Assembly (NCBI RefSeq): GCF_000768315.1
Contig: NZ_AQQX01000001.1
Location: 682,001-746,000, forward strand
DNA: 64,000 bases
From: Pseudooceanicola atlanticus
GTDB lineage: Bacteria > Pseudomonadota > Alphaproteobacteria > Rhodobacterales > Rhodobacteraceae
Reading direction: 5' to 3'
Position 1 is the stretch's first letter, and every line of letters begins with the position of its first letter. The notes below the pieces were generated by a model. The model did no database searches and was not told the DNA's origin. It saw nothing but the letters and a program-made list of their open reading frames with translations. Shown here one piece after another: positions 34,536 to 50,333 of this stretch. A program made the translations under genes and the position numbers.

Positions 34536-34582
34536 GGTGATCCTTCCTGATTCCGGGATAACATCATTTCACATCATTATAC

Positions 34583-34598: not shown

Positions 34599-34672
34599 AA
34601 ATGCGAAGCTATCCCGCGTCATATGACCTGTTTTCCGTAATTTGACGGGTAAATCAGGCAAAATGATGGGTT

Positions 34673-34702: not shown

Positions 34703-34768
34703 GAGGCCGTATGATGCTCTCCCTCATTGGAGATCGCGTCCGGGAGGGGCGCGACCAGGGAGGGAAAA

Positions 34769-36379
34769 ATGACGCAACAACCGCACTTTTCGCGGCGCCG
34801 ATTCATGTCGGCTGCTGCCCAGACAACTGCGCTCGTCGCCTTGTCATCGCCGCTGATCCTGCGCGCCGACCGCGCCCGCGCTGCCAGTGACCTGGCCGAG
34901 GGCATGATCGGGGGGCCGACCGGCTTTGCCGGGGCGGAACGCTATCAATACGGGCCCGACACGCCCGAAGGCCGCGCGATCGAGGCCGTCAAGGCGCTCA
35001 AGGCGGCCGGCAAGGCCCCCGACCGGATCGTGCTGGGCCTTTCGGACGGCTCCATCGGCCAGATCACCCAGCCCTTCCCCGAAGGCGCCCCCTCGGTGAA
35101 AGAGCTGTGGGAGCAGGAGACCGGCATCACCCTCGACATCGTCGGCGTGCCGAACGGCCAGGAATTCACCAAGGTGATGCAGGACGTTTCCACCAAGGGC
35201 GGCGGCTTTGACATCTACGCCGTCGAATGGAACCGCCTGGGCGACCTGGCCGAAACCGGCGGCATCGTCGCGCTGGACGATTTCGTCGCCAGCCACAAGC
35301 CGGAATGGGACGATCCCGAACGCGGCTACGTGAACGGCGAACAGGGCGTGTCGCTGCTGAACCAGTATCGCGGGTCCGTCTACGGGGTGTCGCTGGACGG
35401 CGATTTCCAGACCTGGAACCACCGCACCGACCTGTTCAACAACCCCGAGGAACAGAAGGCCTTCGCCGATCAATACGGTTACGAACTGGCCCCGCCGAAG
35501 ACCTGGAAACAGCATGACGAGATCGCGGCCTTCTTCCACCGGCCCGACCAGGGGCTCTTCGGCTCGACCGACCTGCGCAACCAGGGCTGGGGCTATACCA
35601 ACTGGTATCAGCGCTATGTCTCGATGGGGTCGCCCAACCAGTTCCTCTTTGCCGATGACGGCACCGCGCTGATCAATTCCGAAGCGGGCTGGATGGCGAC
35701 GCAGGAATATGTCGACAGCCTGTCGCATCATTCCCCCGACGCGATCAGCTGGGGCTGGCCCGAGCAATACGGCAATTTCGGCAATGGTGGTGCGGCGATG
35801 ACCTGTGCCTTCTCGAACCTGCCCAAGTTCCTCGACAACCCCGCCAACGAAGGGTCGAAGGTCACCGGCAAGGTCGGCACCCACCTGCCGCCGGGCCGCG
35901 AGCATGACGACGGCATTTCCGCCCGCACCGTGCTGTGGCTGAACCTGACCGCCTGCGTGTCCTCGCAATCCGACCACCCCGAGGCGTCCTACCTGCTGCT
36001 GCAATGGCTGGGCTCGTCCCGCATCTACAGCTGGATGACGGCCAACCCGGGCGGCTATTTCGACCCGTTCCAACTGGCCAACTTCGCCGATCCGCTGGTG
36101 CGCGAAACCTACCACGACTACCACATGGATGTGGTCCGCGAGAGCGTGAAGCGCACCGTACCGACGATCAACTACCCAGGCGCCACCGCCTTCCACAACG
36201 CGCTGGACGAAAACCTGATGGCGGCGCTGACCGGGGGCATGGATGCCGAACAGGCCATGGCCAACACCGAACGGCAATGGAAACGCATCGCCCGCCGCGT
36301 CGGCGAAGACAAGCTGATCGAGGCGATCCAGGCCAACAAGGCCGCCTGGCCCACCATCATGGACCCGGCGTCCAGCTGA
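34769..36379 (+). CDS. ABC transporter substrate-binding protein (carbohydrate type, Tat-exported)
   Basis: A 536-residue periplasmic binding protein, longer than the ~420 of typical sugar SBPs. A twin-arginine signal SRRRFMSAAAQTTALVALSS directs Tat export, implying folding before export. Mature regions such as YAVEWNRLGDLAETGGIVAL, FADQYGYELAPPKTWKQHDE and CAFSNLPKFLDN follow the COG1653 pattern. The size and operon with two ATPases recall the rhizobial glycerol transporter (GlpV). The many Trp and Tyr residues suit a carbohydrate or polyol ligand. The ATG at 34769 has AGGGAGGGA directly upstream. First gene of the operon. Confidence 0.88.
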   Translation: MTQQPHFSRRRFMSAAAQTTALVALSSPLILRADRARAASDLAEGMIGGPTGFAGAERYQYGPDTPEGRAIEAVKALKAAGKAPDRIVLGLSDGSIGQITQPFPEGAPSVKELWEQETGITLDIVGVPNGQEFTKVMQDVSTKGGGFDIYAVEWNRLGDLAETGGIVALDDFVASHKPEWDDPERGYVNGEQGVSLLNQYRGSVYGVSLDGDFQTWNHRTDLFNNPEEQKAFADQYGYELAPPKTWKQHDEIAAFFHRPDQGLFGSTDLRNQGWGYTNWYQRYVSMGSPNQFLFADDGTALINSEAGWMATQEYVDSLSHHSPDAISWGWPEQYGNFGNGGAAMTCAFSNLPKFLDNPANEGSKVTGKVGTHLPPGREHDDGISARTVLWLNLTACVSSQSDHPEASYLLLQWLGSSRIYSWMTANPGGYFDPFQLANFADPLVRETYHDYHMDVVRESVKRTVPTINYPGATAFHNALDENLMAALTGGMDAEQAMANTERQWKRIARRVGEDKLIEAIQANKAAWPTIMDPASS

Positions 36380-36444
36380 CGGTTCCTCCCTCGCGGGGCC
36401 GTTCCTGACGGCGGCCTCGCGACCTATTCGAAAAGACACCGACC

Positions 36445-37305
36445 ATGCAACGCTCGCTCTCATTCGAGATCTTTCGCTATGCCGCGATCTTCGGCTTTCT
36501 CGCGCTGTCGCTCATCCCGACGATCTGGATGTTCTCGATGGCCTTCAAGCCGATCGCGGAATGGCAGGCCTCCGGCGCCGACCTGACCTGGTGGCCCAAG
36601 AACCCGACCCTCGACAATTTCCGCTTCATCTTCGGCGAAAGCGGATCGGACCTGATCGTCGCGCTGGAACGCACGGCGGGCCGCCCGATCCTGGCCTCGC
36701 TTCTGTCAGCCACCTTCGGCACGCTGATCGCCATGGCCGCCGGCACCGCCGCCGCCTACGGGCTGTCGCGCTTCGGGGCCGGGGGCAACCTGCCGCTGGC
36801 GCTGATCCAGCTGCGGATCTTCCCGCCGATGGCGGTGATGATCCCCGTGATGATCATGTGGGCCTTCCTGGGCCTGATCGACACCTGGTATGGCCTCGCG
36901 CTGATCTACGGCATCGTCACCATGCCCTTCAGTTTCTGGCTGATGAAGACCTTCTTCGATGACCTGCCACGAGAGATCGAGGATGCCGCCCTGGTCGAAG
37001 GCTGTTCGCGCTGGCGTGTCTTCCTCAAGATCACCCTGCCGATGATGCGGCCTGCGCTCGCCTCGTCCGCGCTCTTCGTCTTCATCCTGAACTGGTCCGA
37101 CTACCTGATCGCCCTGCTTCTGACGACGCGCGACTGGGTCACCATCCCCGTCTACATGGCCTCGCTGTCGTCCTCGATGACCGGGCAGCTCTATGGCGCC
37201 AAGGCAGCACTTGGCCTGATCGCCGCCGTGCCACCCGTCATCATGGGCATCGCCATCCAGAAACAGCTGGTCCGCGGCCTGACATTCGGAGCGCTCAAGG
37301 AATGA
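36445..37305 (+). CDS. ABC sugar transporter permease (MalG type)
   Basis: A 286-residue inner-membrane permease with six predicted helices. It has a cytoplasmic EAA loop ([20 protein letters not shown], then LPMMRPAL) that docks on an ATPase. The sequence AFKPIAEWQ near the first helix and the C-terminal [13 protein letters not shown] are typical of MalG-family proteins. It overlaps the next permease gene by ATGA. Its EAA helix is not identical to that of its partner, so each permease may prefer one of the two different ATPases. Confidence 0.92.
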
Positions 37306-38249
37306 CCGACATGACCACCGATACCCTGCCCGACGACGCGGGTGACGAGACCGCCCTGCATGGCGGCGCCGAGGAACGGAAGCTGGGCTTCTGGCTGACC
37401 CTTCCGGCCCAGCTGCTGGTGCTCTTCATCGCGCTCTTCCCGATCCTGATGCAGGTCTACATCTCGCTGACGGACTGGTCGCCGCTGGACGGCATCCCCT
37501 GGTACCAGGCCTACGAGCTGTGGATCGGCCTGCTGAACTATGTCGACCTGGCCAATGATCCCCGGTTCTGGTCCGCCATGTGGCGCACCTGCATCGTGAT
37601 GGCGATCTGCGTGCCGGTGCAGTTCTTCCTCGGCCTCGGGCTGGCGATCCTCTTCGTCGACGATTTCCGCGGCAAGCGGGTGCTCTATTCGACGATCCTG
37701 GTGCCGATGATGGTGGTGCCTGCGGTGGCCGGCTACATGTTCTTCATGCTCTTCCAGTCGGGCGGGCCGGTGAACGACATCCTGTCTTTCTTCGCAGGCC
37801 GCCCGGTGACCATCGCCTGGCTGTCCGACCCCGACCTGGCGCTGTTCGCCACCATCGTGTCGGACATCTGGCAATGGACGCCGCTGATGTTCCTGATCCT
37901 TCTGGCTGGCATGGTGTCCGTGCCGCAGGACCAGCAGATGGCCGCCGTCCTTCTGGGCGCGTCCTGGACCCGGCGCTTCTTCACCATCGTGCTGCCACGG
38001 ATGAAGACGATCATCATCATCGCCATCGCGATCCGGGTGATCGAGAATTTCAAGGTCTTCGACAACTTCTACATCATGACCGGCGGCGGCCCGGGCGTCG
38101 CCACCGAAACCATCTCAATCTACATCTACAAGGTCACCCAGCAGGAGCTGATCTGGGGCTATGTCGCGGCCATCGCGCTGGCCATCCTGATCACGCTGTC
38201 CGTCGTCTCGGCCCTGGCCATCAAGAAACTGCGGGGGGCTCAGCAATGA
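37302..38249 (+). CDS. ABC sugar transporter permease (MalF type)
   Basis: A 315-residue permease with six hydrophobic helices and the EAA loop [25 protein letters not shown]. Its N-terminus carries a ~25-residue acidic cytoplasmic tail ([15 protein letters not shown]). The C-terminal half [18 protein letters not shown] is characteristic of MalF-like proteins. It is coupled to both neighbours by start/stop overlaps (37302 and 38246), consistent with stoichiometric production of the complex. Confidence 0.92.
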
Positions 38250-39304
38250 CCGAGATCGTGATGCAGAACCTCGGCAAGGATTTCGGTGCCTTCACCGCCC
38301 TGGCCGAGATGGACCTGACGATCGGGTCCGGGGAATTCGTGGCGCTGCTTGGCCCCTCGGGCTGCGGCAAGTCGACCACGATGAACATGATCGCCGGGAT
38401 GCTCGATCCCAGCCACGGGGAAATCCGGTTCGACGGGCGCAACATGAACGGCGTGCCCATGGCCAAACGCGGCGTCGGCTTCGTCTTCCAGAACTACGCG
38501 ATCTTCACCCACATGACGGTGCGCGACAACCTGGCCTACGGGCTGAAATCGCAGGGCGTGGGCCGCGCGGAAACCAACCGCCGCGTCGGTGAGATCGCCG
38601 AGCTGTTGCAGCTGACCCCGATGCTCGACCGCAAGGCGGCAGGGCTGTCGGTGAACATCCTGCAACGCCTCGCCATCGGCCGGTCGGCCGTGGTCGAACC
38701 CGCGATCTTCCTGCTGGACGAACCGCTGTCGAACGTCGATGCGGCCTTCCGCGCCGTCATGCGGGCCGAGCTGAAGTCGCTGCAACGCCAGTTCAAGCAG
38801 ACCATGGTCTACGTCACCCATGACCAGCTTGAGGCGATGACCATGGCCGACCGCATCGCGGTGATGGATCACGGCAAGCTGTTGCAGGTCGGCACCCCGC
38901 TCGAGGTCTACAACCACCCCGCCGACACCTTCGTCGCCCGGTTCATCGGCGCGCCCGGCATGAACCTGCTGAAGGGGCGGATCACCGGGGCCGATACCGG
39001 CCTGGTGGCCGATCTGGGCGCGGCGGGCCATTGCCCGGTCCGCACGGGGCAGGGGGGCGATGTGCTCTTCGGCTTCCGCCCGGAACAGGTCCATCCGGAT
39101 GCGAATGGACCGTTGCAGATGATCGTCACCACCGTCGAACGGATCGGCGCGCGCACCATCCTGCACCTGGCCGCGGGCGACATGACCGCCAAGGCCGTGC
39201 TGGACAGCGAAACGCCCGTGCCGGACCAGGGCCAGCCCTTCCGCTTTGCCCTGGATGCGGACGACGTCCGCCTCTTCGACGCTGAAACCGAAAGGGCGCT
39301 CTGA
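38246..39304 (+). CDS. ABC transporter ATPase with degenerate signature motif
   Basis: A 352-residue UgpC/MalK-like ATPase with a C-terminal OB-type regulatory domain. Walker A GPSGCGKS (36-43), Q-loop FVFQN, Walker B FLLDEP with catalytic Glu159 and the switch His192 (VTHDQ) are intact. The signature is LSVNI (134-138) where nearly all relatives have LSGGQ, followed by LQRLAIGRS in place of QQRVAIARA. With the second ATPase (next gene) it should form a heterodimer whose only canonical site pairs this protein's Walker motifs with the partner's LSGGE. TGATG overlap with that gene. Confidence 0.9.
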   Translation: MTEIVMQNLGKDFGAFTALAEMDLTIGSGEFVALLGPSGCGKSTTMNMIAGMLDPSHGEIRFDGRNMNGVPMAKRGVGFVFQNYAIFTHMTVRDNLAYGLKSQGVGRAETNRRVGEIAELLQLTPMLDRKAAGLSVNILQRLAIGRSAVVEPAIFLLDEPLSNVDAAFRAVMRAELKSLQRQFKQTMVYVTHDQLEAMTMADRIAVMDHGKLLQVGTPLEVYNHPADTFVARFIGAPGMNLLKGRITGADTGLVADLGAAGHCPVRTGQGGDVLFGFRPEQVHPDANGPLQMIVTTVERIGARTILHLAAGDMTAKAVLDSETPVPDQGQPFRFALDADDVRLFDAETERAL

Positions 39305-40320
39305 TGGCCTCGATTTCCTTCCGCAACGTGACCAAGCGGTTCGGCGATATCGTCGCCGTGGATGACGTGTCGCTCGATATCCGCGACAACGCCTTCTTCT
39401 GCCTCTTCGGGCCGCCGCTGTCGGGCAAGTCCACGATCCTCAAGCTGATCCTCGGGCTGGAACAGCCGGACGAGGGCGAGATCCTGATCGACGGCCGCCC
39501 CGTCACCCATGTCAGCCCCGCGAAACGCAACGTGGCCATGGTGTTCCAGAACCTCGCGCTGTTTCCGCACATGTCGGCGCTGGACAATGTCCGCTTCCCG
39601 CTGGTGGAACGGCGCGAGGACCCGGCCAGGATCGCCGCCCGCGTCGCCGAGGTCAGCGAGAAACTTCATATCGGGCACATCCTGCACAAACCGCCGGCGC
39701 AGCTGTCGGGCGGGGAACGCCAGCGCGTCGCCATCGCCCGTGCGCTGGTGCGCGACCCGGTGGCCTACCTGATGGACGACCCGATCAGCGCGCTCGACGC
39801 ACGCCTGCGCGAGGAAACCCGCGTCGAACTGCGCCGCATCCAGCGCGAGATGGGCAAGACGCTGGTCTACGTGACCCATGACCAGGAAGAGGCGATGTCC
39901 GTCGCCGATGGCATGGCGGTGTTCGAGAACGGCAAGGTCCGCCAGACCGGCACGCCCGAAGACCTCTATCGCAGCCCGAATTCCACCTACGTGGCGGGCA
40001 TGCTGGGCTCGCCCGCGATGAATGTCGTGCCGATGGGGCTGGCCCCCAGGATGCAGGTCGGGACCGCGCCCGACCGGGCCGAAAGCCTCGGGGTCCGCCC
40101 GGAAAACCTGCGCGTCGGCGAGGGCGATATGGCCGAGATCGTGGAGGTCGAACCGCTGGGAGGCTTCACCACACTGGGCCTGACTTTCGAGGGGACGGAC
40201 CTGCGCGCCACGCTGCGCGGACAGCCGAAATTCACCGCCGGCCAGAAGGTGGGCCTGACCGTCGATTCCGGACGGGCCCATTTTTTCGATGCCGGAGGCG
40301 CCGCAATCGCGGCACATTGA
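39304..40320 (+). CDS. ABC transporter ATPase with Glu-to-Asp change in Walker B
   Basis: A 338-residue UgpC/MalK-like ATPase. Walker A is GPPLSGKS (36-43), the signature LSGGE (134-138) is intact and the switch His is in VTHDQEEAM. Walker B reads YLMDDP, so the general-base Glu at position 159 is Asp. The change lies at the same alignment position as the intact Glu of the first ATPase. In a heterodimer this defect falls in the same composite site as the partner's LSVNI signature. The C-terminal domain (about 240-338) is the MalK-type regulatory barrel. Confidence 0.9.
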   Translation: MASISFRNVTKRFGDIVAVDDVSLDIRDNAFFCLFGPPLSGKSTILKLILGLEQPDEGEILIDGRPVTHVSPAKRNVAMVFQNLALFPHMSALDNVRFPLVERREDPARIAARVAEVSEKLHIGHILHKPPAQLSGGERQRVAIARALVRDPVAYLMDDPISALDARLREETRVELRRIQREMGKTLVYVTHDQEEAMSVADGMAVFENGKVRQTGTPEDLYRSPNSTYVAGMLGSPAMNVVPMGLAPRMQVGTAPDRAESLGVRPENLRVGEGDMAEIVEVEPLGGFTTLGLTFEGTDLRATLRGQPKFTAGQKVGLTVDSGRAHFFDAGGAAIAAH

Positions 40321-40342
40321 AGACAGGGAGAGGGAGGAGACA

Positions 40343-41428
40343 ATGAAAGATTTTGCCTACAGGCCGGATCCGGAGGTCCGGGTCCGCAAGTACAGGATCG
40401 GGGCCATCGGCGCCGGCATGATCATGGCCGATTGCCATCTGGCCGCCTATGCAGAGGCCGGGTTCCCGGTCCATGCCATCGCGTCGCGCACCAGGGCCAA
40501 CGCGCAATCGGTCGCGGATCGCTGGAACATCGGCACCGTGCACGACACGCCCGAGGCGCTGATCGACGACCCGGAGGTCGAGATCGTGGATATCGCCTAT
40601 CCGCCCGACCAGCAGCCCGCGCTGATCCGCAAGGCCCTGGCCGCGCCGCACGTCAAGGCCGTGCTGGCCCAGAAACCGCTGGCCCTGTCGCTGGACGAGG
40701 CCCGCGCCCTCAGGGACGAGGCGAAGGCGGCGGGCAAGCCGCTCAGCGTGAACCAGAACATGCGCTACGACCAATCGATGCAGGTGCTCAAGCAGATCCT
40801 CGATCGCGGTGCCCTGGGCGATCCGGTCTTTGCCCAGATCGACATGCACGCGATCCCGCATTGGCAGGGCTTCCTGGAAGGCTATGACCGCCTGACCCTG
40901 TCCAACATGTCGGTGCACCACCTCGATGCGCTGCGGTTCCTGTTTGGTGACCCGGAGGAGGTGACAAGCCTCACCCGCACCGATCCGCGCACCCAGTTCG
41001 ACCATTCCGACGGGATCGTCATCACCACGATGCGCTTCCCCTCCGGCCTCATGGCGCTCAGCACCGAGGACGTCTGGTCCGGCCCGCGCGAGGAGGGCTA
41101 CGAGGACGATCAGCACATCACCTGGCGGGTCGAGGGCACCAAGGGTGTCGCCAAGGGCACGATCGGCTGGCCGACCGGTGCGGCGTCGACCCTGTCCTAC
41201 AACTCGACCGAGGAAACCGGGGGCAAGTGGGTCACGCCCGAATGGGACACGATGTGGTTCCCGCATGCCTTCATCGGCGTGATGGAGCAGCTCCAGCACG
41301 CCATCGACACCGGCACGGAGCCGGTTCTGAACGTGGCCGACAACGTGCGCACCATGGCGCTTGTCGAGACCGCCTACCAATCCATCGAAGAGGGCCGGAC
41401 CGTCCGGCTCGACCTGACAAAAGACTAA
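40343..41428 (+). CDS. Gfo/Idh/MocA family oxidoreductase
   Basis: A 361-residue NAD(P)-dependent sugar or polyol dehydrogenase. The Rossmann motif is IGAIGAGMIMADCHLAAYAE, the family EKP motif appears as AQKPLALSLDEA with the catalytic Lys, and the C-terminal alpha/beta domain includes NMSVHHLDALRFLFG with the conserved His. Candidate reactions are oxidation at C1 or C2/C3 of an aldose, inositol or sugar acid. It starts the catabolic part of the operon, 22 bp after the ATPase genes, with an AGGGAGGAGA ribosome binding site. Confidence 0.9.
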   Translation: MKDFAYRPDPEVRVRKYRIGAIGAGMIMADCHLAAYAEAGFPVHAIASRTRANAQSVADRWNIGTVHDTPEALIDDPEVEIVDIAYPPDQQPALIRKALAAPHVKAVLAQKPLALSLDEARALRDEAKAAGKPLSVNQNMRYDQSMQVLKQILDRGALGDPVFAQIDMHAIPHWQGFLEGYDRLTLSNMSVHHLDALRFLFGDPEEVTSLTRTDPRTQFDHSDGIVITTMRFPSGLMALSTEDVWSGPREEGYEDDQHITWRVEGTKGVAKGTIGWPTGAASTLSYNSTEETGGKWVTPEWDTMWFPHAFIGVMEQLQHAIDTGTEPVLNVADNVRTMALVETAYQSIEEGRTVRLDLTKD

Positions 41429-41444
41429 AGGGAGGACATTCACC

Positions 41445-42359
41445 ATGATGCCAGTCGGAATTTTCTCGGGATATTTCCCGTACGACCTCAAGAAGACCTG
41501 CGAGACGATCAAGGGTCACGGCTTTTCCACCGTGCAGCTGGACCTGCATTTCAAGGATATCGACGTCAGCGAAGGGCAGATGACGCCTGACAAGTGCCGG
41601 ACCATCCGCGACACGTTCCGCGACTATAACCTGCCGATCTGTGCGATCTCGGGCTACACCAACATCGTGCATCCCGATGCGGGCACCCGCAAGGAACGCC
41701 TGGCGCGGCTGAAGGAACTGATCGCGCATGCACAATACCTCGGCACGCCCTACGTGATCTCGGAAACGGGCACGTTCGATACCGAATCCGACTGGGTCCA
41801 CCATCCCAAGAACAAGACCGAAGAGGGCTGGGAAGACTGCCGCAACGTGATCGCCGACCTCGCCCAGTTCGCCTATGACCACGGCTCGGTCTTCCTGCTG
41901 GAAACCTACGTCAACAACGTCGTGGGCAGCGTCGAGGAAACCCTGCGCATGTTCGCAGAGGTCGACCACCCGGGCCTTGGCCTGCTGATGGACCCGACCA
42001 ACTACTTCGAATCCCACAATATCGACGACATGGATCGCATCCTGAACCACGTCTTCGATGCCCTGTCGGACAAGATCTGCATTGCCCATGCCAAGGACGT
42101 GAAACGCTCCGGCGACGACAAGGCCGAAAAGCACGCCGATATCGGCGATGACAGCGCCGCCGAAAGCCACACCTTCCGCGGTGTCGGCGAGATCGAGCTG
42201 CCGGCCCCGGGTCTGGGAGAGCTGAACTATGATCTCTACTTCCAGCGCCTTGCGAAGAAGCACCCCAACATCCCGATGATCATCGAGCATCTGGATGAAT
42301 CGGACGTGCCGCGCGCCAAGAAGTTCATCGACGAGAAGATGCGCGCCAACGGCTGCTGA
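41445..42359 (+). CDS. Sugar phosphate isomerase/epimerase (AP endonuclease 2-like TIM barrel)
   Basis: A 304-residue xylose-isomerase-like TIM barrel. Metal-binding residues appear in the expected places: Glu in VISETGTFD, Glu in FLLETYVNN, Asp in LLMDPTNYF, His in CIAHAKDVKR and Glu in MIIEHLDESD. Members act as epimerases, isomerases or dehydratases on sugars and inosose. It is probably the partner of the upstream Gfo/Idh/MocA enzyme, a common pairing in polyol and inositol catabolism. The specific reaction is unknown. Confidence 0.87.
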   Translation: MMPVGIFSGYFPYDLKKTCETIKGHGFSTVQLDLHFKDIDVSEGQMTPDKCRTIRDTFRDYNLPICAISGYTNIVHPDAGTRKERLARLKELIAHAQYLGTPYVISETGTFDTESDWVHHPKNKTEEGWEDCRNVIADLAQFAYDHGSVFLLETYVNNVVGSVEETLRMFAEVDHPGLGLLMDPTNYFESHNIDDMDRILNHVFDALSDKICIAHAKDVKRSGDDKAEKHADIGDDSAAESHTFRGVGEIELPAPGLGELNYDLYFQRLAKKHPNIPMIIEHLDESDVPRAKKFIDEKMRANGC

Positions 42360-42452
42360 GCACAATCGGCGGGCCGGCTGATCCCGGCCCGCCACCCCAA
42401 GTTTCGGACAAGAAAAAGGCGCCCCGGACCCGCGGCGGCGAACGGAGAAGTC

Positions 42453-43631: not shown

Positions 43632-44437
43632 ACCGCGTATCACCGATGACAGGCGGGGCCGCACAGGGCCAAGGGGCACAGGGGCAGGGGGCGCTGGCCG
43701 GACGCCGGGTGCTCTATACCGGGGCCTCGGGGGGGCTGGGCCACCAGACCACGCTCGACATGCTGGACGCCGGGGCCGAGGTCTTTGCCCTCGACCGCGA
43801 CCAGTCCAAGAACGAAAGCCTGCTGGCCGACACACCCGACGATGTCGCCGCCCGGCTGCACCTGCTGGAAATGGACCTGACCGACCAGGACGCGCTGACC
43901 GCGAAACTGGCCCAGATCACGGACAACAAACCGCTCGACGTGGTCATCAACAACGCCGCCATCTATCCGTCGAAACCCTTCGAGGATTTCACGATGGAAG
44001 AGCTCCGCCTGGTCCACCAGGTCAACGTGGAGGCCGCGCTGATCTGCACCCGCGCCGCGCTTCCCGGCATGCGGGATCAGGGCTGGGGCCGGATCATCAA
44101 CGTGACCTCGATCACCCTGACCGGCGGCTGGGAAAACCTGGCGCCTTACGTGCAATCCAAGGGATCCCTGCTGGGCCTGACCCGGGCATGGGCGCGCGAG
44201 TTCGGCAAGTGGGGTATCACCTGCAACGCCATCGCGCCCGGGGCCTTTCCCACGGATGCCGAAAAGATCCATCCGGATCCGGATGGGTATCGGAAATTCG
44301 TGCTCGATCACCAGGCGGTCAAGCGGCGCGGGACGCCGCATGACATCGCCGCCGCCATCCTGTTCCTCGCCTCCGACGGGGCCGGTTTCATCACCGGCCA
44401 GAACCTGGCCGTCGATGGCGGCTGGAACATGACCTGA
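43628..44437 (+). CDS. Short-chain dehydrogenase/reductase of the sugar locus
   Basis: A 269-residue classical SDR. Seen are VLYTGASGGLGHQTT (cofactor loop), VVINNAAIYPS, a catalytic Ser/Thr in NVTSITLTGG, Tyr-x3-Lys in YVQSKGSLLGLTRAW and a C-terminal GQNLAVDGGWNM. It resembles gluconate 5-dehydrogenase and sugar-acid SDRs, so oxidation of a sugar or keto-acid hydroxyl is likely. The N-terminal ~25 residues contain a small Gln-Gly repeat (AQGQGAQGQGAL) from a duplicated GGGGCACAGG-type word. It overlaps the upstream gene by ATGA. Confidence 0.88.
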   Translation: MNRVSPMTGGAAQGQGAQGQGALAGRRVLYTGASGGLGHQTTLDMLDAGAEVFALDRDQSKNESLLADTPDDVAARLHLLEMDLTDQDALTAKLAQITDNKPLDVVINNAAIYPSKPFEDFTMEELRLVHQVNVEAALICTRAALPGMRDQGWGRIINVTSITLTGGWENLAPYVQSKGSLLGLTRAWAREFGKWGITCNAIAPGAFPTDAEKIHPDPDGYRKFVLDHQAVKRRGTPHDIAAAILFLASDGAGFITGQNLAVDGGWNMT

Positions 44438-44461
44438 CACCCTCAACCCTGGAACGCATCA

Positions 44462-45655
44462 ATGGGAATTCTCGACGGCTATACCGTACTCGACTGCTCC
44501 ATCGCCATGGCCGGGCCCTTCGCGGCGCAGCGCCTGGGCGACCTGGGCGCCGACGTCATCAAGGTCGAACCGATCGCCGGTGAATGGCAGCGCCACGCGC
44601 CCGCCGGCGGCATCACCGGCAACAGGATCAACGTGTCCTTCCTGTCGCTCAACCGGAACAAGCGCTCGCTCGCGGTGGACCTGAAATCCGATGCCGGGCA
44701 GGCGGTCATCCGGAAGCTGGTGGAGAAGGCCGATGTCTTCATCCAGAACTACCGCGCCGGGGTCGCCGGCCGGCTGGGCGTGGATTACGACACGCTGTCG
44801 GCGATCAATCCCGGCCTCGTCTACGTGTCCATGACCGGCTATGGCGAGGACGGTCCCCACGCGCAGCGCCCCGGCCAGGACCTGCTGTTGCAGGCCATGT
44901 CGGGCGCCATGATGTCCACCGGCCGCGCCGGCGAACCGCCCCAGGCCGCCGGGCAATACCTGGTCGATGCCGTCACCGCCTACACCGCGTTCGAGGGCGC
45001 GCTGGCCGCGCTCCTGCACCGCGAACGCACCGGCGAGGGCCAGAAGGTCGAGGTCAACATGCTCGACGCGATCACCACGCTGCAGATGCAGGAATTGTCG
45101 GTCTTCACCGTGGGCGGCAAGCCGCAGGAACGCTCGGCCGAGCCGCACGCCCATGTCTATATCCGGGCGCCCTACGGCACCTTCGCGACCACCGACGGCT
45201 ATATCGCGCTGGCCATGCCGAACTTCCCGGGCCTTGCCCGCGCGCTCGACGCACCCGCGCTGGCAGACCTCGACGAAACCACCGCGGGCTGGGACGACCG
45301 CGACGCCACATTCGCCGCCGTACGGGACGCCATCGCGAAATTCTCCACCGCCGATTGCCTGTCGCGGCTCGAGGCCGAGGGCATCTGGGCCGGGCCGGTC
45401 TACGGCTATGCCGACCTCGTCGCGGATCCGCAGATCGCCCATAACGGCACCTTCATCGAATACGACCACCCGACCGAAGGCCACGTGAAGACCCCCGGCT
45501 TCCCCATCCGCTTCTCCCGCAGCCCGGCCGAACTGCGCCGCGGTGCCCCCCTGACCGGCGAACATACCGACGAGGTGCTGCGCGCCGCCGGGTTCTCCGA
45601 CGCCGAGATTGCCGAGATGGAAGGCGCCGGCGCCATCGCGCGGGGCACGGAATGA
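44462..45655 (+). CDS. CaiB/BaiF CoA-transferase family III
   Basis: A 397-residue family III CoA-transferase. The N-terminal Rossmann part is VLDCSIAMAGPFAAQRLGDLGADVIKVEP, the middle contains RPGQDLLLQAMSG, and Asp169 in GQYLVDAVTAY aligns with the catalytic Asp that forms the aspartyl-CoA thioester in formyl-CoA transferase. LLHRERTGEGQKVEVNML is another family block. The expected role is moving CoA between carboxylic acids. Such an enzyme is unusual in a pentose or sugar-acid operon and, with the crotonase two genes on, suggests a CoA-ester intermediate. Confidence 0.93.
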   Translation: MGILDGYTVLDCSIAMAGPFAAQRLGDLGADVIKVEPIAGEWQRHAPAGGITGNRINVSFLSLNRNKRSLAVDLKSDAGQAVIRKLVEKADVFIQNYRAGVAGRLGVDYDTLSAINPGLVYVSMTGYGEDGPHAQRPGQDLLLQAMSGAMMSTGRAGEPPQAAGQYLVDAVTAYTAFEGALAALLHRERTGEGQKVEVNMLDAITTLQMQELSVFTVGGKPQERSAEPHAHVYIRAPYGTFATTDGYIALAMPNFPGLARALDAPALADLDETTAGWDDRDATFAAVRDAIAKFSTADCLSRLEAEGIWAGPVYGYADLVADPQIAHNGTFIEYDHPTEGHVKTPGFPIRFSRSPAELRRGAPLTGEHTDEVLRAAGFSDAEIAEMEGAGAIARGTE

Positions 45656-46749
45656 GCTATCGCGGTCTGACATGGGATCACCCCCGCGGCCTGAACGCCC
45701 TGGCCGCCGCACAAGGCCCCGTCACATGGGAGGTCCAGCCCCTTGAAGGCTTCGAATCCGCCCCCATTGCCGACCTTTGTGCCGAATACGACCTCGTCGT
45801 GCTCGACCATCCGCATCTGGGCGAGGCGCTGGCCCATGATTGCCTGACCCCGCTGGACCAGGTTTTCGCCGCTGATGATCTGGCCCGCATTGCCGACGGT
45901 GCCATCGGCCCGGCCTATTCCAGCTATGCCATGGCGGGCCGCCAATGGGCGCTGCCGCTGGATGCGGCGACACAGGTCATGGCCCTGCGCCCCGACCTGG
46001 CTGAAACCCCGCCCACCAGCTGGGCCGAGGTCGAGACCCTGTCGCAACAGGGCGGCGTCGCGCTGTCGCTTGCGGGGCCCCATGCGGCGCTGTCCTTCCT
46101 GTCGGTCTGTGCCGCGTTGGATGACGCCCTCGACATGCGCGACGGTGGCTGGCCCGCCGATGGCATCGCCGAACGGGCCTATGACATCCTCGCGCCCCTC
46201 GCCGCGCGCACGCCCGCGCACACGAAGACGCTCAACCCGATCGGGCTGCTCGACCTGATGGGCCGCGCCGACGACATCCGCCTGATCCCGCTGGTCTACG
46301 GCTACGTCAACTACACCCGCGCGTCCCGTCCCGTGGCCTTCCAGGACGCGCCGCGCGCGGGTGGGCGGCCCGGATCGATCCTCGGCGGCACCGGCATCTG
46401 CGTGTCGCGCCGGGCGCAGGTCGACGACACGCTGCGCGATCACCTGCTCTGGCTCATGTCCGACGCGACACAGCGCGGCTTCATCCCCGATCACGACGGC
46501 CAGCCCGGCCTGCGGTCCGCCTGGGCCGACCCGAAGGTCAACGCCGCCTGGGGGAATTTCTACAGCCAGACCGCCGCCACGCTGGAGGCCGCCGCGATCC
46601 GCCCCCGCCATGACGGCTACATCGCCCTGCAAACCCGCGCCTCGGCCTACCTGCGCGACGCCTTCGACGCGCGCACACCGGCACCCCAGGCCGCGCGCAG
46701 ACTGCGCGACATGTTCGAGGCCAGCCAACCCGAAAGGACCACAGCATGA
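45652..46749 (+). CDS. Substrate-binding-protein-like protein without signal peptide
   Basis: A 365-residue protein with the look of an extracellular solute-binding protein: YDLVVLDHPHLGEALAHDCL, YAMAGRQWALPLDAATQVMA, TSWAEVETL, a Gly-rich GRPGSILGGTGICVS and a C-terminal LRSAWADPKVNAAW. The N-terminus MSYRGLTWDHPRGLNAL starts directly with the first beta strand and has no Sec, Tat or lipoprotein signal. It should therefore stay in the cytoplasm. Its start overlaps the CoA-transferase stop (ATGA) and its end overlaps the crotonase start, so it is made with these two enzymes. A sensing, chaperoning or enzyme-accessory role is possible; no function is established by the sequence. Confidence 0.75.
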   Translation: MSYRGLTWDHPRGLNALAAAQGPVTWEVQPLEGFESAPIADLCAEYDLVVLDHPHLGEALAHDCLTPLDQVFAADDLARIADGAIGPAYSSYAMAGRQWALPLDAATQVMALRPDLAETPPTSWAEVETLSQQGGVALSLAGPHAALSFLSVCAALDDALDMRDGGWPADGIAERAYDILAPLAARTPAHTKTLNPIGLLDLMGRADDIRLIPLVYGYVNYTRASRPVAFQDAPRAGGRPGSILGGTGICVSRRAQVDDTLRDHLLWLMSDATQRGFIPDHDGQPGLRSAWADPKVNAAWGNFYSQTAATLEAAAIRPRHDGYIALQTRASAYLRDAFDARTPAPQAARRLRDMFEASQPERTTA

Positions 46750-47513
46750 GCGCCCCGCTCACCCTGACGATCGAGAACCGGATCGCCACGATCACCTATA
46801 ACCGCCCCGAAAAGCTGAACGCGATGACGCCCGAAATGGCGCAGCTGATGTGGGATGCGGTGCACAGGATCAACGCCGATGATACGGCCCGGGCGGTGAT
46901 CCTGACCGGCACGGGCAAGGCGTTCTGCGCCGGTTCGGACATCTCGGATCTCGACCGGTACGCCACGCCCTGGGATTTCCGCAACCGCCCGGAATATTGC
47001 GACGCGCTCCGGGCGTTGCAGAAACCCTCCATCGCCGCGATCAACGGCTATGCCATGGGCGGCGGGCTGGAAATGGCGCTGTCGTGTGACATCCGCATCG
47101 CCGCCGACACCGCGAAACTCGCTGCGCCCGAGATCAAGCTGGGCTGGATCGGCGGCGGCGGCATGACCGCGCTGCTGGCCCACTCCATCGGCCCCTCGAA
47201 TGCGGCGCTGATGGTGATGACCGGCGATCCGATCCCCGCCGACAAGGCGCTCGCCTGGGGGCTGGTCTCGGAAGTCACGACGCCCGATGCGCTGATGACC
47301 CGCGCGACCGAGATCGCCGGCACCATCGCCAGCCGCGCCCCCGTCGCCGCCGAAACCGCGCGCCTGAACCTTCAGGCCGCCTATAACATGCCGCTGGAAA
47401 AGGCCGTCGCCTACGAGCGTGACCTGCAGGCCATCTGCTTTGCCACCGATGACGCCGCCGAGGGCCGCGCCGCCTTTGCCGAAAAGCGCGCCCCAGATTT
47501 CAAACGCCGCTAA
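46746..47513 (+). CDS. Enoyl-CoA hydratase/isomerase (crotonase) family protein
   Basis: A 255-residue crotonase. The oxyanion-hole segments are KAFCAGSDISDLD and GYAMGGGLEMALSCD. The two catalytic Glu of hydratases are both present, in GGGLEMAL and APEIKLGWIGGGGM, so hydration/dehydration of a CoA thioester is plausible. Its place after a CoA-transferase and a binding-protein-like gene, inside a carbohydrate operon, hints that a polyhydroxy-acyl-CoA is dehydrated. That is inference only. Confidence 0.9.
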   Translation: MSAPLTLTIENRIATITYNRPEKLNAMTPEMAQLMWDAVHRINADDTARAVILTGTGKAFCAGSDISDLDRYATPWDFRNRPEYCDALRALQKPSIAAINGYAMGGGLEMALSCDIRIAADTAKLAAPEIKLGWIGGGGMTALLAHSIGPSNAALMVMTGDPIPADKALAWGLVSEVTTPDALMTRATEIAGTIASRAPVAAETARLNLQAAYNMPLEKAVAYERDLQAICFATDDAAEGRAAFAEKRAPDFKRR

Positions 47514-47524
47514 GGACCCGGACC

Positions 47525-48673
47525 ATGACACCAATCGACGCTCCCGAAGGCCTCTGGCTGGGTCGGTGCTGGACCCCTGATGCGCAGGGCCCCGCCATCG
47601 TCACCCTGCGCGACGGCCAGCTGATCGACATCACCTCCACCACCGCGCCGACGGTCAGCCACGTGCTGGACCTGCCCGACCCCGCCGCCCATATCCGCGA
47701 CGCGCAGGGCACCCCCCTTGGCGACTTCGACACCATCGCCGCCAATGCCCCCGCGCCCGACCGGCTCCATCTGCTCGCGCCCTGCGACCTGCAGGCGGTC
47801 AAGGCCTGCGGCGTCACCTTCGCCCGGTCCATGGTCGAACGCGTGATCGAGGAAAAGGCCGCCGGCGACCCTGCCCGGGCCGAGGCGATCCGCGCCCGCG
47901 TCGGCCAGGTCATCGGCGACAGCCTGCGCAACCTCCGCGCCGGCTCCCCCGAGGCGGCCGAGGTCAAGCGCACCCTTCAGGCCGAAGGGCTGTGGTCGCA
48001 ATACCTCGAGGTCGGGATCGGCCCGGATGCCGAGGTGTTCACCAAGTGCCCGCCCATGGCCTCTGTCGGGACGGGGGCCGAGATCGGGCTGCACCCGGTC
48101 TCGACCTGGAACAACCCCGAACCCGAGATCGTGCTCGCCGTGTCCTCCACGAGGCGCATCCTGGGTGCGACCCTGGGCAATGACGTGAACCTGCGCGATG
48201 TCGAAGGCCGCTCGGCCCTGCTACTGGGCAAGGCCAAGGACAACAACGCCTCCTGCGCGATCGGGCCGATGATTCGGCTCTTCGACGGGAACTGGACGTT
48301 GGACGACGTGCGCCGGGCCGAGCTGACCCTGACGGTCGAAGGCACGGATGGCTACAGCCTGACCGGCCATTCCTCGATGTCCGAGATCAGCCGCGACCCC
48401 GAAGACCTGGTCGCCCAGACGCTGGGACGCCATCACCAGTATCCCGACGGGGTGGTGCTGTTCCTCGGCACGCTTTTCGCCCCGACCGAGGATCGCGACG
48501 TCCCGGGCGAGGGCTTCACCCACAAGACCGGCGATGTCGTCACGATCTCGGCCCCGGGCCTCGGCGCGCTGACCAACATTGTGCGCCTGTCGACCGAAGC
48601 GCCGGAATGGACCTTCGGCACCCGCGCCCTGATGGCCAACCTTGCCGCCCGCGGGCTGCTGGCCCCGGCCTGA
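47525..48673 (+). CDS. 2-keto-3-deoxy-pentonate dehydratase-like protein (XylX-like, FAH family)
   Basis: A 382-residue fumarylacetoacetate-hydrolase-fold protein. It matches the Caulobacter XylX pattern closely: LLAPCDLQAVKACGVTFARS, LWSQYLEVGIGPDAEVFTK, TWNNPEPEIVLAV (metal-binding Glu residues), GNDVNLRDVEGRSALLL and AKDNNASCAIGPMIRLFD. XylX-type enzymes dehydrate 2-keto-3-deoxy-xylonate to alpha-ketoglutarate semialdehyde in the Weimberg pathway. The next gene encodes the dehydrogenase for that product, which supports the assignment. The sugar of origin is not shown. Confidence 0.87.
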   Translation: MTPIDAPEGLWLGRCWTPDAQGPAIVTLRDGQLIDITSTTAPTVSHVLDLPDPAAHIRDAQGTPLGDFDTIAANAPAPDRLHLLAPCDLQAVKACGVTFARSMVERVIEEKAAGDPARAEAIRARVGQVIGDSLRNLRAGSPEAAEVKRTLQAEGLWSQYLEVGIGPDAEVFTKCPPMASVGTGAEIGLHPVSTWNNPEPEIVLAVSSTRRILGATLGNDVNLRDVEGRSALLLGKAKDNNASCAIGPMIRLFDGNWTLDDVRRAELTLTVEGTDGYSLTGHSSMSEISRDPEDLVAQTLGRHHQYPDGVVLFLGTLFAPTEDRDVPGEGFTHKTGDVVTISAPGLGALTNIVRLSTEAPEWTFGTRALMANLAARGLLAPA

Positions 48674-48718
48674 CCGACGCGCCTGACGCCCGCGACGCGG
48701 GATGAACAGCTGATGAAC

Positions 48719-48774
48719 GCCCCGTTTCGGGGCACCGACGTAATACCGACGTGATACCGACGCATTGCCGATGC
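48719..48774 (-). repeat. Hairpin plus four-unit tandem array with an 11-bp period
   Basis: A GCCCCG-TTT-CGGGGC hairpin (48719-48733) runs into four 11-bp units (48731-48774): GGCACCGACGT, AATACCGACGT, GATACCGACGC, ATTGCCGATGC. On the minus strand these match the RCGTCGGTATY units at 22174-22228. It lies in the 130-bp gap between the dehydratase and semialdehyde dehydrogenase genes. Confidence 0.85.
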
Positions 48775-48803
48775 CGGATCCGAGACCCGAAAGGACCCTA
48801 CAG

Positions 48804-50333
48804 ATGGACGGAACGAGCCCCGATTTCACCCCCCATGGCAAGCACCTGATCGCCGGAGACTGGGTCGCCGGAGAGACGCGATTCACCTCCGAGCCGGCCC
48901 ATGGCCCGGCGCATGACTATTCCGTCGGCACCCCCGACCTGGTGGACCGTGCTTGCCGCGCGGCCGAGGATGCGTTCTGGACCTACGGCTACACGACCCG
49001 CGAACAGCGCGCTGTTTTCCTTGGTAAAATCGCCGACGAGATCGAGGCGCGCGGCGCCGCCATCACCGCCATCGGTACCTCTGAGACCGGCCTGCCCGAG
49101 GCCCGGCTGGAAGGTGAACGCGGCCGCACCACGGGTCAGCTGCGGCTCTTTGCCAGCCATATCCGCAAGGGTGATTACCTCGACATCCGCCATGATCAGG
49201 CGCTGCCCGACCGCCAACCCCTTGCGCGGCCTGAACTTTTCATGATGCAGCGCCCCATCGGTCCGGTCGCGGTCTTCGGGGCCTCGAACTTCCCGCTGGC
49301 CTTTTCCACCGCCGGCGGCGACACCGCCGCGGCGCTGGCCGCAGGCTGCCCGGTCGTGGTGAAGGGCCATTCCGCCCATCCCGGCACCGGCGAAATCGTG
49401 GCCGAGGCCATCCATGCCGCCATCGTCGCCTGCGACATGCCCGCCGGTGTCTTCTCTCTGATCCAGGGCGGAAAACGCGATGTGGGTCAGGCACTTGTGC
49501 AGCATCCGCTGATCAAGGCCGTGGGCTTCACCGGCTCCCTCGGCGGGGGCAGGGCGTTGTTCGATCTCTGCGCGCAGCGCCCCGAACCGATCCCGTTCTT
49601 CGGGGAGCTCGGGTCAGTTAACCCGATGTTCATCCTCGAACAGGCATCCTCGGCCCGCGGGGAAGAGATCGGCACCGGCTGGGCCGGGTCGCTGACCATG
49701 GGTGCGGGCCAGTTCTGCACCAATCCCGGCATCGCCGTCGTGGCCAAGGGGGCTGCGGGCGATGCCTTCGTGAAATCCGCGGCGGCCGCCCTTCAGGACG
49801 TCGCCCCGCAGAAGATGCTGACCGACGGCATCGCCGCCGCCTACCGGGACGGAAAGGCCCGGTTCGACGCCCGCAACGCGGTGCGTCCGGTGCTGACGAC
49901 CGATCCCGAAGGCCGCATGGCCACGCCGAACCTGTACGAGACGGATGCCGAGAATTACCTTCGGGATCAATCTCTTGGAGAAGAGGTGTTCGGCCCGCTC
50001 GGCCTTGTTGTCCGCGTCTCGGACCGTGCGGAGATGGAGCATCTGGCCCGCGGCTTCGAAGGCCAGCTGACCGCCACGATCCAGATGGATGGGGGCGATG
50101 CCGAAGATGCGCGCCGCCTGTTGCCGATCCTCGAACGCAAGGCGGGCCGGCTGCTGGTCAACGGCTTCCCCACCGGTGTCGAGGTCGCGGATACGATGGT
50201 TCATGGCGGCCCTTACCCGGCCTCCACCAATTTCGGCGCGACCTCCGTCGGCACCCTGTCGATCCGCCGCTTCCTGCGGCCGGTCTGCTACCAGAACGTC
50301 CCGGCAGATGTCCTGCCGGGTGACTTGGCTTAA
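48804..50333 (+). CDS. Alpha-ketoglutarate semialdehyde (2,5-dioxovalerate) dehydrogenase
   Basis: A 509-residue NADP-type aldehyde dehydrogenase of the KGSADH-III type. RPIGPVAVFGASNFPLAFS holds the Asn-containing active-site region, VKGHSAHPGTGEI is the cofactor site, GFTGSLGGGRALFDL is the loop before the Glu, FFGELGSVNP contains the catalytic Glu, and GAGQFCTNPG contains the nucleophilic Cys. It oxidises alpha-ketoglutarate semialdehyde to 2-oxoglutarate, the last step of Weimberg-type pathways. The ATG at 48804 has AAAGGA upstream. The preceding gap carries the 11-bp-period array, so it may also have its own regulation. Confidence 0.93.
   Translation: MDGTSPDFTPHGKHLIAGDWVAGETRFTSEPAHGPAHDYSVGTPDLVDRACRAAEDAFWTYGYTTREQRAVFLGKIADEIEARGAAITAIGTSETGLPEARLEGERGRTTGQLRLFASHIRKGDYLDIRHDQALPDRQPLARPELFMMQRPIGPVAVFGASNFPLAFSTAGGDTAAALAAGCPVVVKGHSAHPGTGEIVAEAIHAAIVACDMPAGVFSLIQGGKRDVGQALVQHPLIKAVGFTGSLGGGRALFDLCAQRPEPIPFFGELGSVNPMFILEQASSARGEEIGTGWAGSLTMGAGQFCTNPGIAVVAKGAAGDAFVKSAAAALQDVAPQKMLTDGIAAAYRDGKARFDARNAVRPVLTTDPEGRMATPNLYETDAENYLRDQSLGEEVFGPLGLVVRVSDRAEMEHLARGFEGQLTATIQMDGGDAEDARRLLPILERKAGRLLVNGFPTGVEVADTMVHGGPYPASTNFGATSVGTLSIRRFLRPVCYQNVPADVLPGDLA

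Follow-up and report, generated by a model that had tools for sequence, protein, structure and literature searches.

Gene content of the operon

The window is the whole 64,000-nucleotide stretch of Pseudooceanicola atlanticus DNA that was analyzed (contig NZ_AQQX01000001.1, positions 682,001 to 746,000). Fourteen genes, all confirmed as open reading frames (ORFs), lie on its + strand at 34769-50333; neighbors overlap at six of the 13 junctions, and gaps of 11 to 97 nt separate them at the remaining seven. The co-directional run of fourteen genes given in the preliminary description, many of them coupled, was recovered, with coordinates that agreed within start-codon choice. Pfam domains were assigned to 10 of the 14 products (SBP_bac_1, GFO/IDH/MocA, TIM barrel, DUF4432, SDR, CoA_transf_3, SBP_bac_8, ECH_1, FAA_hydrolase, and Aldedh), while the two permeases and two ATPases were identified by visual inspection and by comparison with annotated relatives. 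The features are as follows, with group A referring to a set of loci defined in the next section.

33528..34535, -, LacI-type regulator with Peripla_BP_4 ligand domain, divergent (Pfam)
34564..34578, -, tandem 10-bp operator-like repeat AATGAYG-KRR-AATGA (motif common to the upstream regions of 13 loci)
34769..36379, +, exported sugar solute-binding protein (SBP), 536 aa, Tat-like start by eye (PF01547)
36445..37305, +, ABC permease 1 (ORF, conserved order, annotated relative)
37302..38249, +, ABC permease 2 (ORF, conserved order, annotated relative)
38246..39304, +, ABC ATPase 1 (ORF, conserved order, annotated relative)
39304..40320, +, ABC ATPase 2 (ORF, conserved order, annotated relative)
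40343..41428, +, Gfo/Idh/MocA oxidoreductase, accessory (Pfam; seen in at least 22 of 38 group-A loci)
41445..42359, +, xylose-isomerase-like TIM barrel, accessory (Pfam; seen in at least 23 of 38 group-A loci)
42453..43631, +, DUF4432, aldose-1-epimerase-like (PF14486; 3ty1 match; at least 33 of 38 group-A loci)
43628..44437, +, SDR dehydrogenase, presumed sugar 1-dehydrogenase (Pfam; at least 35 of 38 group-A loci)
44462..45655, +, CaiB-type family III CoA-transferase, Asp169 (PF02515)
45652..46749, +, cSBP, leaderless solute-binding-protein-like CaiB partner (PF13416; profile matches to LpqY and trehalose/maltose binding protein; leader check)
46746..47513, +, crotonase, Glu109 and Glu129, presumed sugar-acyl-CoA dehydratase (PF00378; 5zai match)
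47525..48673, +, XylX/KdaD-like 2-keto-3-deoxy-acid dehydratase of the FAH family (9kkt and 2q18 matches)
48771..50333, +, aldehyde dehydrogenase (ALDH), presumed KGSADH (3v4c match; 63% identity to the ALDH of the genome's own L-arabinonate dehydratase operon)

The divergent LacI-type regulator is part of the locus, as a relative with at least 48% identity lies divergently at the operon start in 12 other loci. The operator-like motif scored a total of 159.6 across its 13 loci versus 102.2 to 107.0 in five shuffles, and the copy in the window is the sole exact match in the P. atlanticus genome. Ten exact matches to the pattern were identified across 16 genomes, and the five that could be placed (P. 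atlanticus, G215, G218, and two in G220) were all at the locus. An operator common to the locus and to distant FAH genes was rejected; no match with one mismatch or fewer was identified at a distant FAH gene in the 16 genomes, the nearest lying about 5 kb away (G217).

The FAH protein scored 382 bits against 9kkt, a 383-aa FAH-family protein, and much more poorly (65 bits) against 2q18, a 2-keto-3-deoxy-D-arabinonate dehydratase. By homology it is predicted to be a 2-keto-3-deoxypentonate dehydratase of the FAH type, in line with the XylX-like enzyme first proposed. The SDR scored 163 bits against the D-xylose 1-dehydrogenase XylB (cut-off, 400), and ALDH had no NCBIfam match above cut-off among the 25 matches listed. 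The aldonate dehydratase reported as absent from the locus was indeed not found, with no IlvD/EDD, MR/MLE, or UxaA-type dehydratase assigned among the ten operon proteins scanned. No lactonase was recognized in the operon, and the Pfam scan identified no CoA ligase among its genes that could prime a CoA cycle.

Conservation of the CaiB, cSBP, and hydratase genes

Of the 75 cSBP loci collected, 73 are distinct (L034 equals L070, and L035 equals L068); the duplicates were kept in the 75-locus counts and in the CaiB and crotonase alignments, and dropped from the counts for groups A and C. The sample comprised 27 matches besides the window's own, with G132 (a contig-end fragment) and weak partial SBP matches left out, and 6 of 145 plasmid records were taken in. 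Group A comprises 38 distinct loci in which close relatives of the two window genes both occur, and group C comprises 27 distant-type loci with CaiB at 35 to 42% identity. The stretches around the loci span 10 to 29 kb and some are incomplete, so gene-presence counts are lower bounds.

In 65 of the 75 loci, CaiB and cSBP share a strand and lie no more than 300 nt apart; CaiB was not found in five. A hydratase was identified in the stretch around cSBP in 67 of 75, either crotonase (n = 51) or MaoC (n = 16) and never both, and in 45 of 75 it shared the strand at a distance of up to 300 nt. MaoC was often non-adjacent: 5 of 16 lay within 300 nt in the same orientation, and another 5 were encoded on the opposite strand. 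Chance proximity was rejected: with 29 CoA_transf_3 matches (fragments included) in the 4.94-Mb P. atlanticus genome, we estimate that one would lie next to any given gene in roughly 1% of cases. The trio spans two phyla and many unrelated bacteria, and this recurrence indicates that the CoA genes of the operon are not passengers.

The preliminary description suggested searching for the trio next to XylX-like and KGSADH genes; the trio itself is conserved, but FAH and ALDH are frequently away from the locus in module-bearing genomes. A XylX-like FAH gene was seen at the locus in at least 22 of the 38 group-A loci and elsewhere in the genome in 14 of 15 tested genomes without one at the locus (L109, on a plasmid, was left out). 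Within the family sample, FAH was matched strongly in 17 of the 25 genomes that also match cSBP strongly, versus 43 of 173 others. The group-C locus L043 has a gene 80% identical to the window ALDH directly before CaiB-cSBP, and in Pseudooceanicola batsensis the operon is present from SBP (incomplete at the stretch edge) to ALDH. All three Nocardia loci carry an unbroken run of CaiB-MFS-MaoC-ALDH-cSBP-FAH with a divergent regulator, and Azospirillum L088 carries SDR-CaiB-cSBP-ECH-FAH-ALDH plus a transporter; these minimal loci hold little besides transport, CaiB, cSBP, hydratase, FAH, and ALDH. Seven loci combine an SDR and an SMP-30 lactonase with ECH, cSBP, and CaiB, and in Nitrospirillum-type loci the genes that follow encode a 2-hydroxyacid dehydrogenase and a protein whose P-loop matches are weak.

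The catalytic residues noted earlier were confirmed in both enzymes. Asp169 of CaiB is aspartate in 70 of 71 aligned proteins, with a gap in one, and Glu109 and Glu129 of the crotonase are invariant in 41 sequences (relatives with at least 60% identity), the window being included in both sets. The best match of the crotonase among solved structures is 5zai, a 3-hydroxypropionyl-CoA dehydratase. CaiB scored 140 bits against L-carnitine CoA-transferase (cut-off, 413) and is only distantly related to it.

cSBP belongs to the SBP sequence family (29.8 bits against PF13416; cut-off, 27), and among proteins of solved structure its profile best matches the sugar-binding LpqY and trehalose/maltose binding protein. 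With starts taken near that of the window, 11 or fewer residues precede the TW motif in 73 of 75 proteins and 22 in one (L079 was left out). No in-frame start 13 to 60 codons ahead of this motif was present in 53 of the 75 loci, and among the other 22 a clearly hydrophobic start was possible only in L059; an exported cSBP was therefore rejected. Nineteen residues are invariant in 40 diverse cSBPs, including W8, R12, D47, D52, S91, D104, and R317. Across 29 loci cSBP was the fastest-changing of five operon genes, with a mean pairwise difference of 0.424 versus 0.262 for CaiB and 0.283 for crotonase.

No known sugar-acid dehydratase was identified in the stretches of 30 of 38 group-A loci, and one was present in the other eight. 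Group-C loci had an MR/MLE dehydratase alongside in 13 of 27 and a UxaA-type enzyme in 8 of 27; thus, the module need not replace a dehydratase there. In six Azospirillum/Nitrospirillum-type loci, a separate gene run upstream contains an MR/MLE gene. Elsewhere, the P. atlanticus genome encodes three IlvD/EDD proteins (IlvD, Edd, and an L-arabinonate dehydratase whose separate operon also encodes GguC and an ALDH), three MR/MLE matches, including one of no assigned function, and one UxaA-type protein. IlvD/EDD members, mostly counted at family level only, numbered three or more (up to nine) in 14 of 17 module-bearing genomes and two only in G201, G203, and G210. Those of P. batsensis (PF00920; IlvD and Edd) and N. 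grenadensis (two IlvD) are housekeeping members only; P. batsensis also retains one MR/MLE protein of no assigned function.

A possible CoA-dependent route and its alternatives

The operon may encode a route of the Weimberg type that leads to alpha-ketoglutarate and converts aldonate to 2-keto-3-deoxyaldonate via CoA esters, a reading for which we judge the case evenly poised. From gene content, conserved association, and catalytic residues, we infer the substrate, cSBP role, and step order as follows. After the sugar enters, DUF4432 would set the right anomer and SDR would oxidize it, with GFO and the TIM barrel possibly widening the sugar range in some strains. CaiB would move CoA onto the aldonate, with cSBP helping in some way, and crotonase (MaoC hydratase in other loci) would take off the 3-OH as water. 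The resulting 2-hydroxy-enoyl-CoA would tautomerize to a 2-keto-3-deoxyacyl-CoA, from which CaiB would hand CoA to the next aldonate. The freed 2-keto-3-deoxy acid would then pass to the FAH-type dehydratase and the semialdehyde dehydrogenase.

CoA-ester activation followed by crotonase dehydration, as put forward in the preliminary description, is not proven but gains strong comparative support because the trio occurs in two phyla with crotonase and MaoC alternating, because minimal loci hold nothing else able to make the FAH substrate, and because a XylX-like FAH co-occurs in the genome. Also in its favor are the absence of a known dehydratase from 30 group-A loci, the presence of the operon in P. 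batsensis with IlvD and Edd as its only IlvD/EDD members, the resemblance of the crotonase to a 3-hydroxyacyl-CoA dehydratase, and the ALDH gene before CaiB-cSBP in L043. Points counted against it are the dehydratases at group-C and eight group-A loci, the many IlvD/EDD proteins, the L-arabinonate dehydratase, UxaA-type protein, and unassigned MR/MLE protein of P. atlanticus, the unassigned MR/MLE protein of P. batsensis, the five cSBP loci in which CaiB was not found, the missing ligase, non-adjacent MaoC, the frequent off-locus position of FAH and ALDH, and the lack of the locus operator at distant FAH genes. Aldonyl-CoA esters with a free 4-OH should also, from general chemistry, lactonize fast; speculatively, cSBP might hold the linear acid and prevent lactone closure.

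Alternatively, a conventional dehydratase encoded elsewhere could supply FAH and ALDH, leaving the CoA genes to act on another acid that derives from an unusual sugar as a side chain, a branch, or a later fragment. This explanation is credible but unlikely. It would fit the L-arabinonate dehydratase of P. atlanticus, the abundance of IlvD/EDD proteins, the trio combined with MR/MLE and UxaA-type enzymes in group C, and the separate MR/MLE genes upstream of six loci, but the minimal Nocardia and Azospirillum loci encode no second-fragment enzyme, the IlvD/EDD members of P. batsensis and N. grenadensis are all housekeeping enzymes, and the L-arabinonate dehydratase of P. atlanticus belongs to a separate operon with its own GguC and ALDH. 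The side-chain or branch idea, raised early, is weakened by the minimal loci but keeps some probability. An aldonate dehydratase elsewhere that is co-induced with the locus was named at the outset as a refutation of CoA-ester dehydration; the genome matches this in presence only, through the L-arabinonate dehydratase in its separate operon.

Cleavage by the crotonase, in which a retro-aldol reaction would split the 3-hydroxyacyl-CoA into an aldehyde and a short acyl-CoA, has a precedent in feruloyl-CoA hydratase/lyase, and the 2-hydroxyacid dehydrogenase and weak P-loop protein of Nitrospirillum-type loci would suit C2/C3 fragments. It seems improbable given the invariant glutamate pair, the substitution by MaoC (we know of no MaoC with lyase activity), and the fit of FAH and ALDH to a C5 keto-deoxy acid. 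That cSBP is itself the dehydratase, with CaiB and crotonase doing something else, is about equally improbable; MqnA is said to be an SBP-fold enzyme, and the invariant residues and absent leader would agree, but cSBP changes fastest and its top solved matches bind sugars. We most strongly doubt that the TIM barrel supplies the missing dehydratase, of IolE/AsbF type and acting after the GFO oxidoreductase. AsbF and IolE were its only solved matches and were weak, and the barrel was seen in only 23 of 38 group-A loci, a lower bound; of 12 module-bearing genomes in which it was not seen at the locus, 11 had no match anywhere and G178 had one elsewhere on the contig. It was rejected as a general dehydratase.

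If CoA-ester dehydration does operate, a broader and more tentative proposal is a new class of sugar-acid dehydratase in Pseudomonadota and Actinomycetota. This would be a three-part CoA-cycling machine for aldonates, comprising a family III CoA-transferase, an SBP-type partner in the cytosol, and either a crotonase or a MaoC, depending on 3-OH stereochemistry. The SBP fold would have been recruited as an intracellular holder that keeps an otherwise self-lactonizing aldonyl-CoA open.

Comparison with known systems

A literature search of titles and abstract openings found no report of CoA-dependent aldonate dehydration or aldonyl-CoA chemistry. To our knowledge, sugar-acid dehydratases (IlvD/EDD, enolase, and UxaA types) take the free acid as substrate and use a metal or iron-sulfur site. 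The CoA-ester route, if true, would instead represent metal-free chemistry borrowed from fatty-acid metabolism. It would also explain why sugar operons contain CaiB genes of no assigned function, and a widespread family that lacks an export signal but is currently annotated as extracellular or ABC-transporter binding proteins would gain a role.

The operon resembles the Weimberg pathway in its SDR-type presumed sugar dehydrogenase, XylX/KdaD-like dehydratase, and presumed semialdehyde dehydrogenase, but in place of an aldonate dehydratase it has a CoA-transferase, cSBP, and crotonase. The genome's own GguC/L-arabinonate dehydratase operon (C45, L062) likewise combines the related ALDH, a FAH-family dehydratase, and an ABC transporter, but it uses an IlvD/EDD dehydratase and no CoA gene was seen among its ORFs. 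cSBP shares profile homology across both lobes with trehalose/maltose-type SBPs (LpqY and TMBP); unlike them, it is leaderless and encoded with CaiB. The logic of the proposed route would be that of CaiB/CaiD carnitine dehydration in Escherichia coli, likewise a family III CoA-transferase with a crotonase, transferred to a sugar acid. For that system, CoA cycling by CaiB with CaiD, proposed to run between product and substrate, has been described (PMC2131755). The window operon differs in lacking a ligase such as CaiC, CaiT, and CaiA and in having a sugar context and the additional cSBP.

Operon layout and encoded proteins

The 4.94-Mb genome of Pseudooceanicola atlanticus carries, within the window (C1:682001-746000), an operon whose preliminary description as 14 co-directional, often coupled genes was borne out, with 14 genes on the + strand and overlaps at 6 of the 13 junctions. 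Overlaps of 4 nt were found between the genes for CaiB, a family III CoA-transferase, and cSBP, a leaderless solute-binding-protein-like protein, and again between cSBP and the crotonase gene.

34769-50333, + strand: operon, in the order SBP, two permeases, two ATPases, Gfo/Idh/MocA oxidoreductase (GFO), TIM barrel protein, DUF4432 protein, SDR, CaiB, cSBP, crotonase (ECH), XylX/KdaD-like 2-keto-3-deoxy-acid dehydratase (FAH), ALDH
45652-46749, + strand: cSBP, eleventh gene of the operon

Divergent from the operon lies a gene whose product, a LacI-type regulator, includes a Peripla_BP_4 domain. In the region upstream of the operon (34536-34768), direct repeats are arranged in tandem at a period of 10 bp (AATGAYG-KRR-AATGA). 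This pattern was also seen at the cSBP loci L073, L075, L078, L085, and L106; its sole exact match in the P. atlanticus genome is the one upstream of the operon, and to our knowledge such a repeat is unusual as a LacI-type operator. Elsewhere in the window, 56310-59849 (- strand) encodes a 1179-aa protein carrying RTX calcium-binding repeats.

The catalytic residues previously assigned to CaiB (Asp169) and to the crotonase (two Glu, here Glu109 and Glu129) were found and are conserved among relatives. The nearest match of the crotonase was a 3-hydroxypropionyl-CoA dehydratase and that of FAH was 9kkt (named only as FAH family); FAH also matched 2q18, a 2-keto-3-deoxy-D-arabinonate dehydratase. 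The nearest solved relative of GFO (40343-41428) was 5uhw, which we take to be an Agrobacterium D-apionate oxidoisomerase, and apiose-like or other rare sugars may be substrates of the GFO/TIM pair. Using NCBIfam, no family was reported for cSBP, FAH, or the DUF4432 protein, while CaiB was over the cut-off in none of the families listed and ECH in none among the best 25 of its 73 matches.

Profile comparison identified trehalose/maltose-type binding proteins as relatives of cSBP. Across 40 diverse cSBPs, 19 residues were invariant (including W8, R12, D47, D52, S91, D104, and R317), with D52 and R317 aligned to an Asp and an Arg of TMBP/LpqY sequences that are presumably sugar-binding residues. 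A conserved (L/M)TWxHPRG-like motif lies almost directly at the N-terminus, preceded by at most 11 residues in 73 of 75 relatives when start codons were picked near that of the window protein. Because this choice is biased, any in-frame start 13 to 60 codons before the motif was also sought; none was present in 53 of the 75 loci, and in the remaining 22 a clearly hydrophobic start was possible only in L059.

Recurrence and types of the CaiB-cSBP-hydratase module

Searches for cSBP covered 198 genomes of the same family, genome contigs (42 named loci), and plasmids (145 records, 6 opened), and 75 loci were examined (27 family, 42 contig, and 6 plasmid; 73 distinct). The trio, for which conservation in other genomes had been suggested as a check, recurred: CaiB lay at most 300 nt from cSBP on the same strand in 65/75 loci, and a same-strand hydratase lay at most 300 nt away in 45/75 (40 ECH and 5 MaoC) and at most 3 kb away in 54/75. 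CaiB was otherwise ∼3.3 kb distant (three loci, Nocardia), on the opposite strand at 4.6 to 4.7 kb (two loci), or not found (five of the 75). The examined stretches held a crotonase in 51 cases, MaoC in 16, neither in 8, and both in 0. Opposite-strand hydratases comprised five MaoC and two ECH; MaoC is tied to cSBP more loosely than crotonase, a point against the CoA-ester reading proposed below.

Close relatives of the window genes (group A; CaiB of ≥57% and ECH of ≥60% identity) formed 38 distinct loci in Rhodobacterales, Hyphomicrobiales, Azospirillum/Nitrospirillum, Sphingobium, Burkholderia/Bordetella, Comamonadaceae, Pseudonocardia, and Streptomyces. As lower bounds from the 38 examined stretches, at least 33 carried DUF4432, at least 35 SDR, at least 23 TIM, at least 22 GFO, at least 22 FAH, and at least 6 an ALDH of ≥50% identity; the transporter type differed among loci. 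Using IlvD, Edd, L-arabinonate dehydratase, four MR/MLE proteins, and one UxaA-type protein as queries, a known sugar-acid dehydratase was identified within the stretch at 8 of these loci and none was identified at the other 30.

Smaller arrangements were also present. Nocardia loci L100 to L102 comprise an unbroken run of CaiB, MFS transporter, MaoC, ALDH, cSBP, and FAH (Pfam basis for MaoC and MFS of L100 only) with a divergent LacI-like regulator, and L088 of Azospirillum doebereinerae comprises SDR, CaiB, cSBP, ECH, FAH, and ALDH with an ABC transporter. The sole candidates for making the FAH substrate in these minimal runs are CaiB and the hydratase (and cSBP). In a third locus type (n = 7), SDR and an SMP-30 lactonase accompany ECH, cSBP, and a CaiB that is more distantly related; four such loci encode a 373-aa protein (cluster 41; L099:10960-12081 and relatives) that had no Pfam match.

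The 27 loci of group C carry a CaiB of 35 to 42% identity. Conventional dehydratases are often near their module (MR/MLE in 13/27, UxaA-type in 8/27), which likewise counts against the CoA-ester reading; in this group the module may be active on another acid. In the group C locus L043 (7129-11072), an ALDH 80% identical to that of the window lies directly 5′ of CaiB-cSBP. The usual MaoC motif, GDxxPxH, contains the hydratase His; this residue is kept in the Nocardia proteins and absent from some group C MaoC, four of them beside cSBP. The MaoC adjoining cSBP-CaiB in L048, L050, L051, and L052 has MDHHPYV, without this His.

FAH and conventional dehydratases across genomes

Sixteen group A loci had no FAH within the stretch, and a XylX-like FAH was located elsewhere or beyond it in 14 of the 15 genomes searched (13 at 55 to 70% identity, and G217 with a match split into two pieces of 55 and 48%); the Pseudonocardia genome gave only a 32% partial match. 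Strong FAH matches (E < 1e-50) occurred in 60 of the 198 family genomes, comprising 17/25 with a strong cSBP match (E < 1e-25; P. atlanticus included) versus 43/173 others (Fisher p = 3.5e-5, kinship ignored).

The PF00920 proteins of P. atlanticus are IlvD, Edd, and one L-arabinonate dehydratase, the last encoded in an operon (L062, C45:38000-57900) with an ABC transporter, a GguC-type FAH, a GFO-like protein, and an ALDH 63% identical to that of the window. This genome also encodes one UxaA-type protein and has three MR/MLE matches (one DgcA, one weak, and one left unassigned). Counted as family members without subtype, PF00920 proteins numbered three or more (up to nine) in 14 of 17 module-bearing genomes and two each in Nocardia grenadensis (G201), P. 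batsensis (G203), and G210. Those of P. batsensis were IlvD and Edd only and those of N. grenadensis two IlvD only, and genome searches identified no UxaA-type protein in either. For MR/MLE, P. batsensis had a muconate cycloisomerase over the cut-off, two more matches, and a protein without assignment whose locus, by its ORFs, looks like protocatechuate degradation. Given two galactonate dehydratases over the cut-off and one unassigned MR/MLE protein, N. grenadensis may have an enolase-type sugar-acid dehydratase.

Proposed dehydration on CoA esters

Titles and abstract openings retrieved by targeted searches of open-access papers gave no description of CoA-dependent aldonate dehydration, and six aldonyl-CoA names were absent from the open-access papers searched, which is weak evidence of absence because only open-access papers were covered. 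Among the 10 pairwise-distance correlations for five genes in 29 loci, CaiB-cSBP (0.926) and cSBP-ECH (0.901) were the two highest, followed by SDR-CaiB (0.890) and CaiB-ECH (0.889). These values agree with a working unit and are no test of one, because the species tree is common to all five genes. In fatty-acid metabolism, crotonase and MaoC act on opposite 3-OH configurations, and their exchange would therefore fit different aldonates.

Carnitine dehydratase activity in E. coli requires both CaiD, an enoyl-CoA hydratase, and CaiB, which is described as cycling CoA between products and substrates (PMC2131755). Transferring this logic to sugar acids, entirely by analogy, we infer that an aldonate would yield a 2-hydroxy-enoyl-CoA, the enol of a 2-keto-3-deoxyacyl-CoA, and that CoA exchange with the next aldonate would release the substrate of FAH. 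The operon could thereby support a Weimberg-type pathway in which aldonate dehydration takes place on CoA esters, as a putative sugar-acid counterpart of the CaiB/CaiD system.
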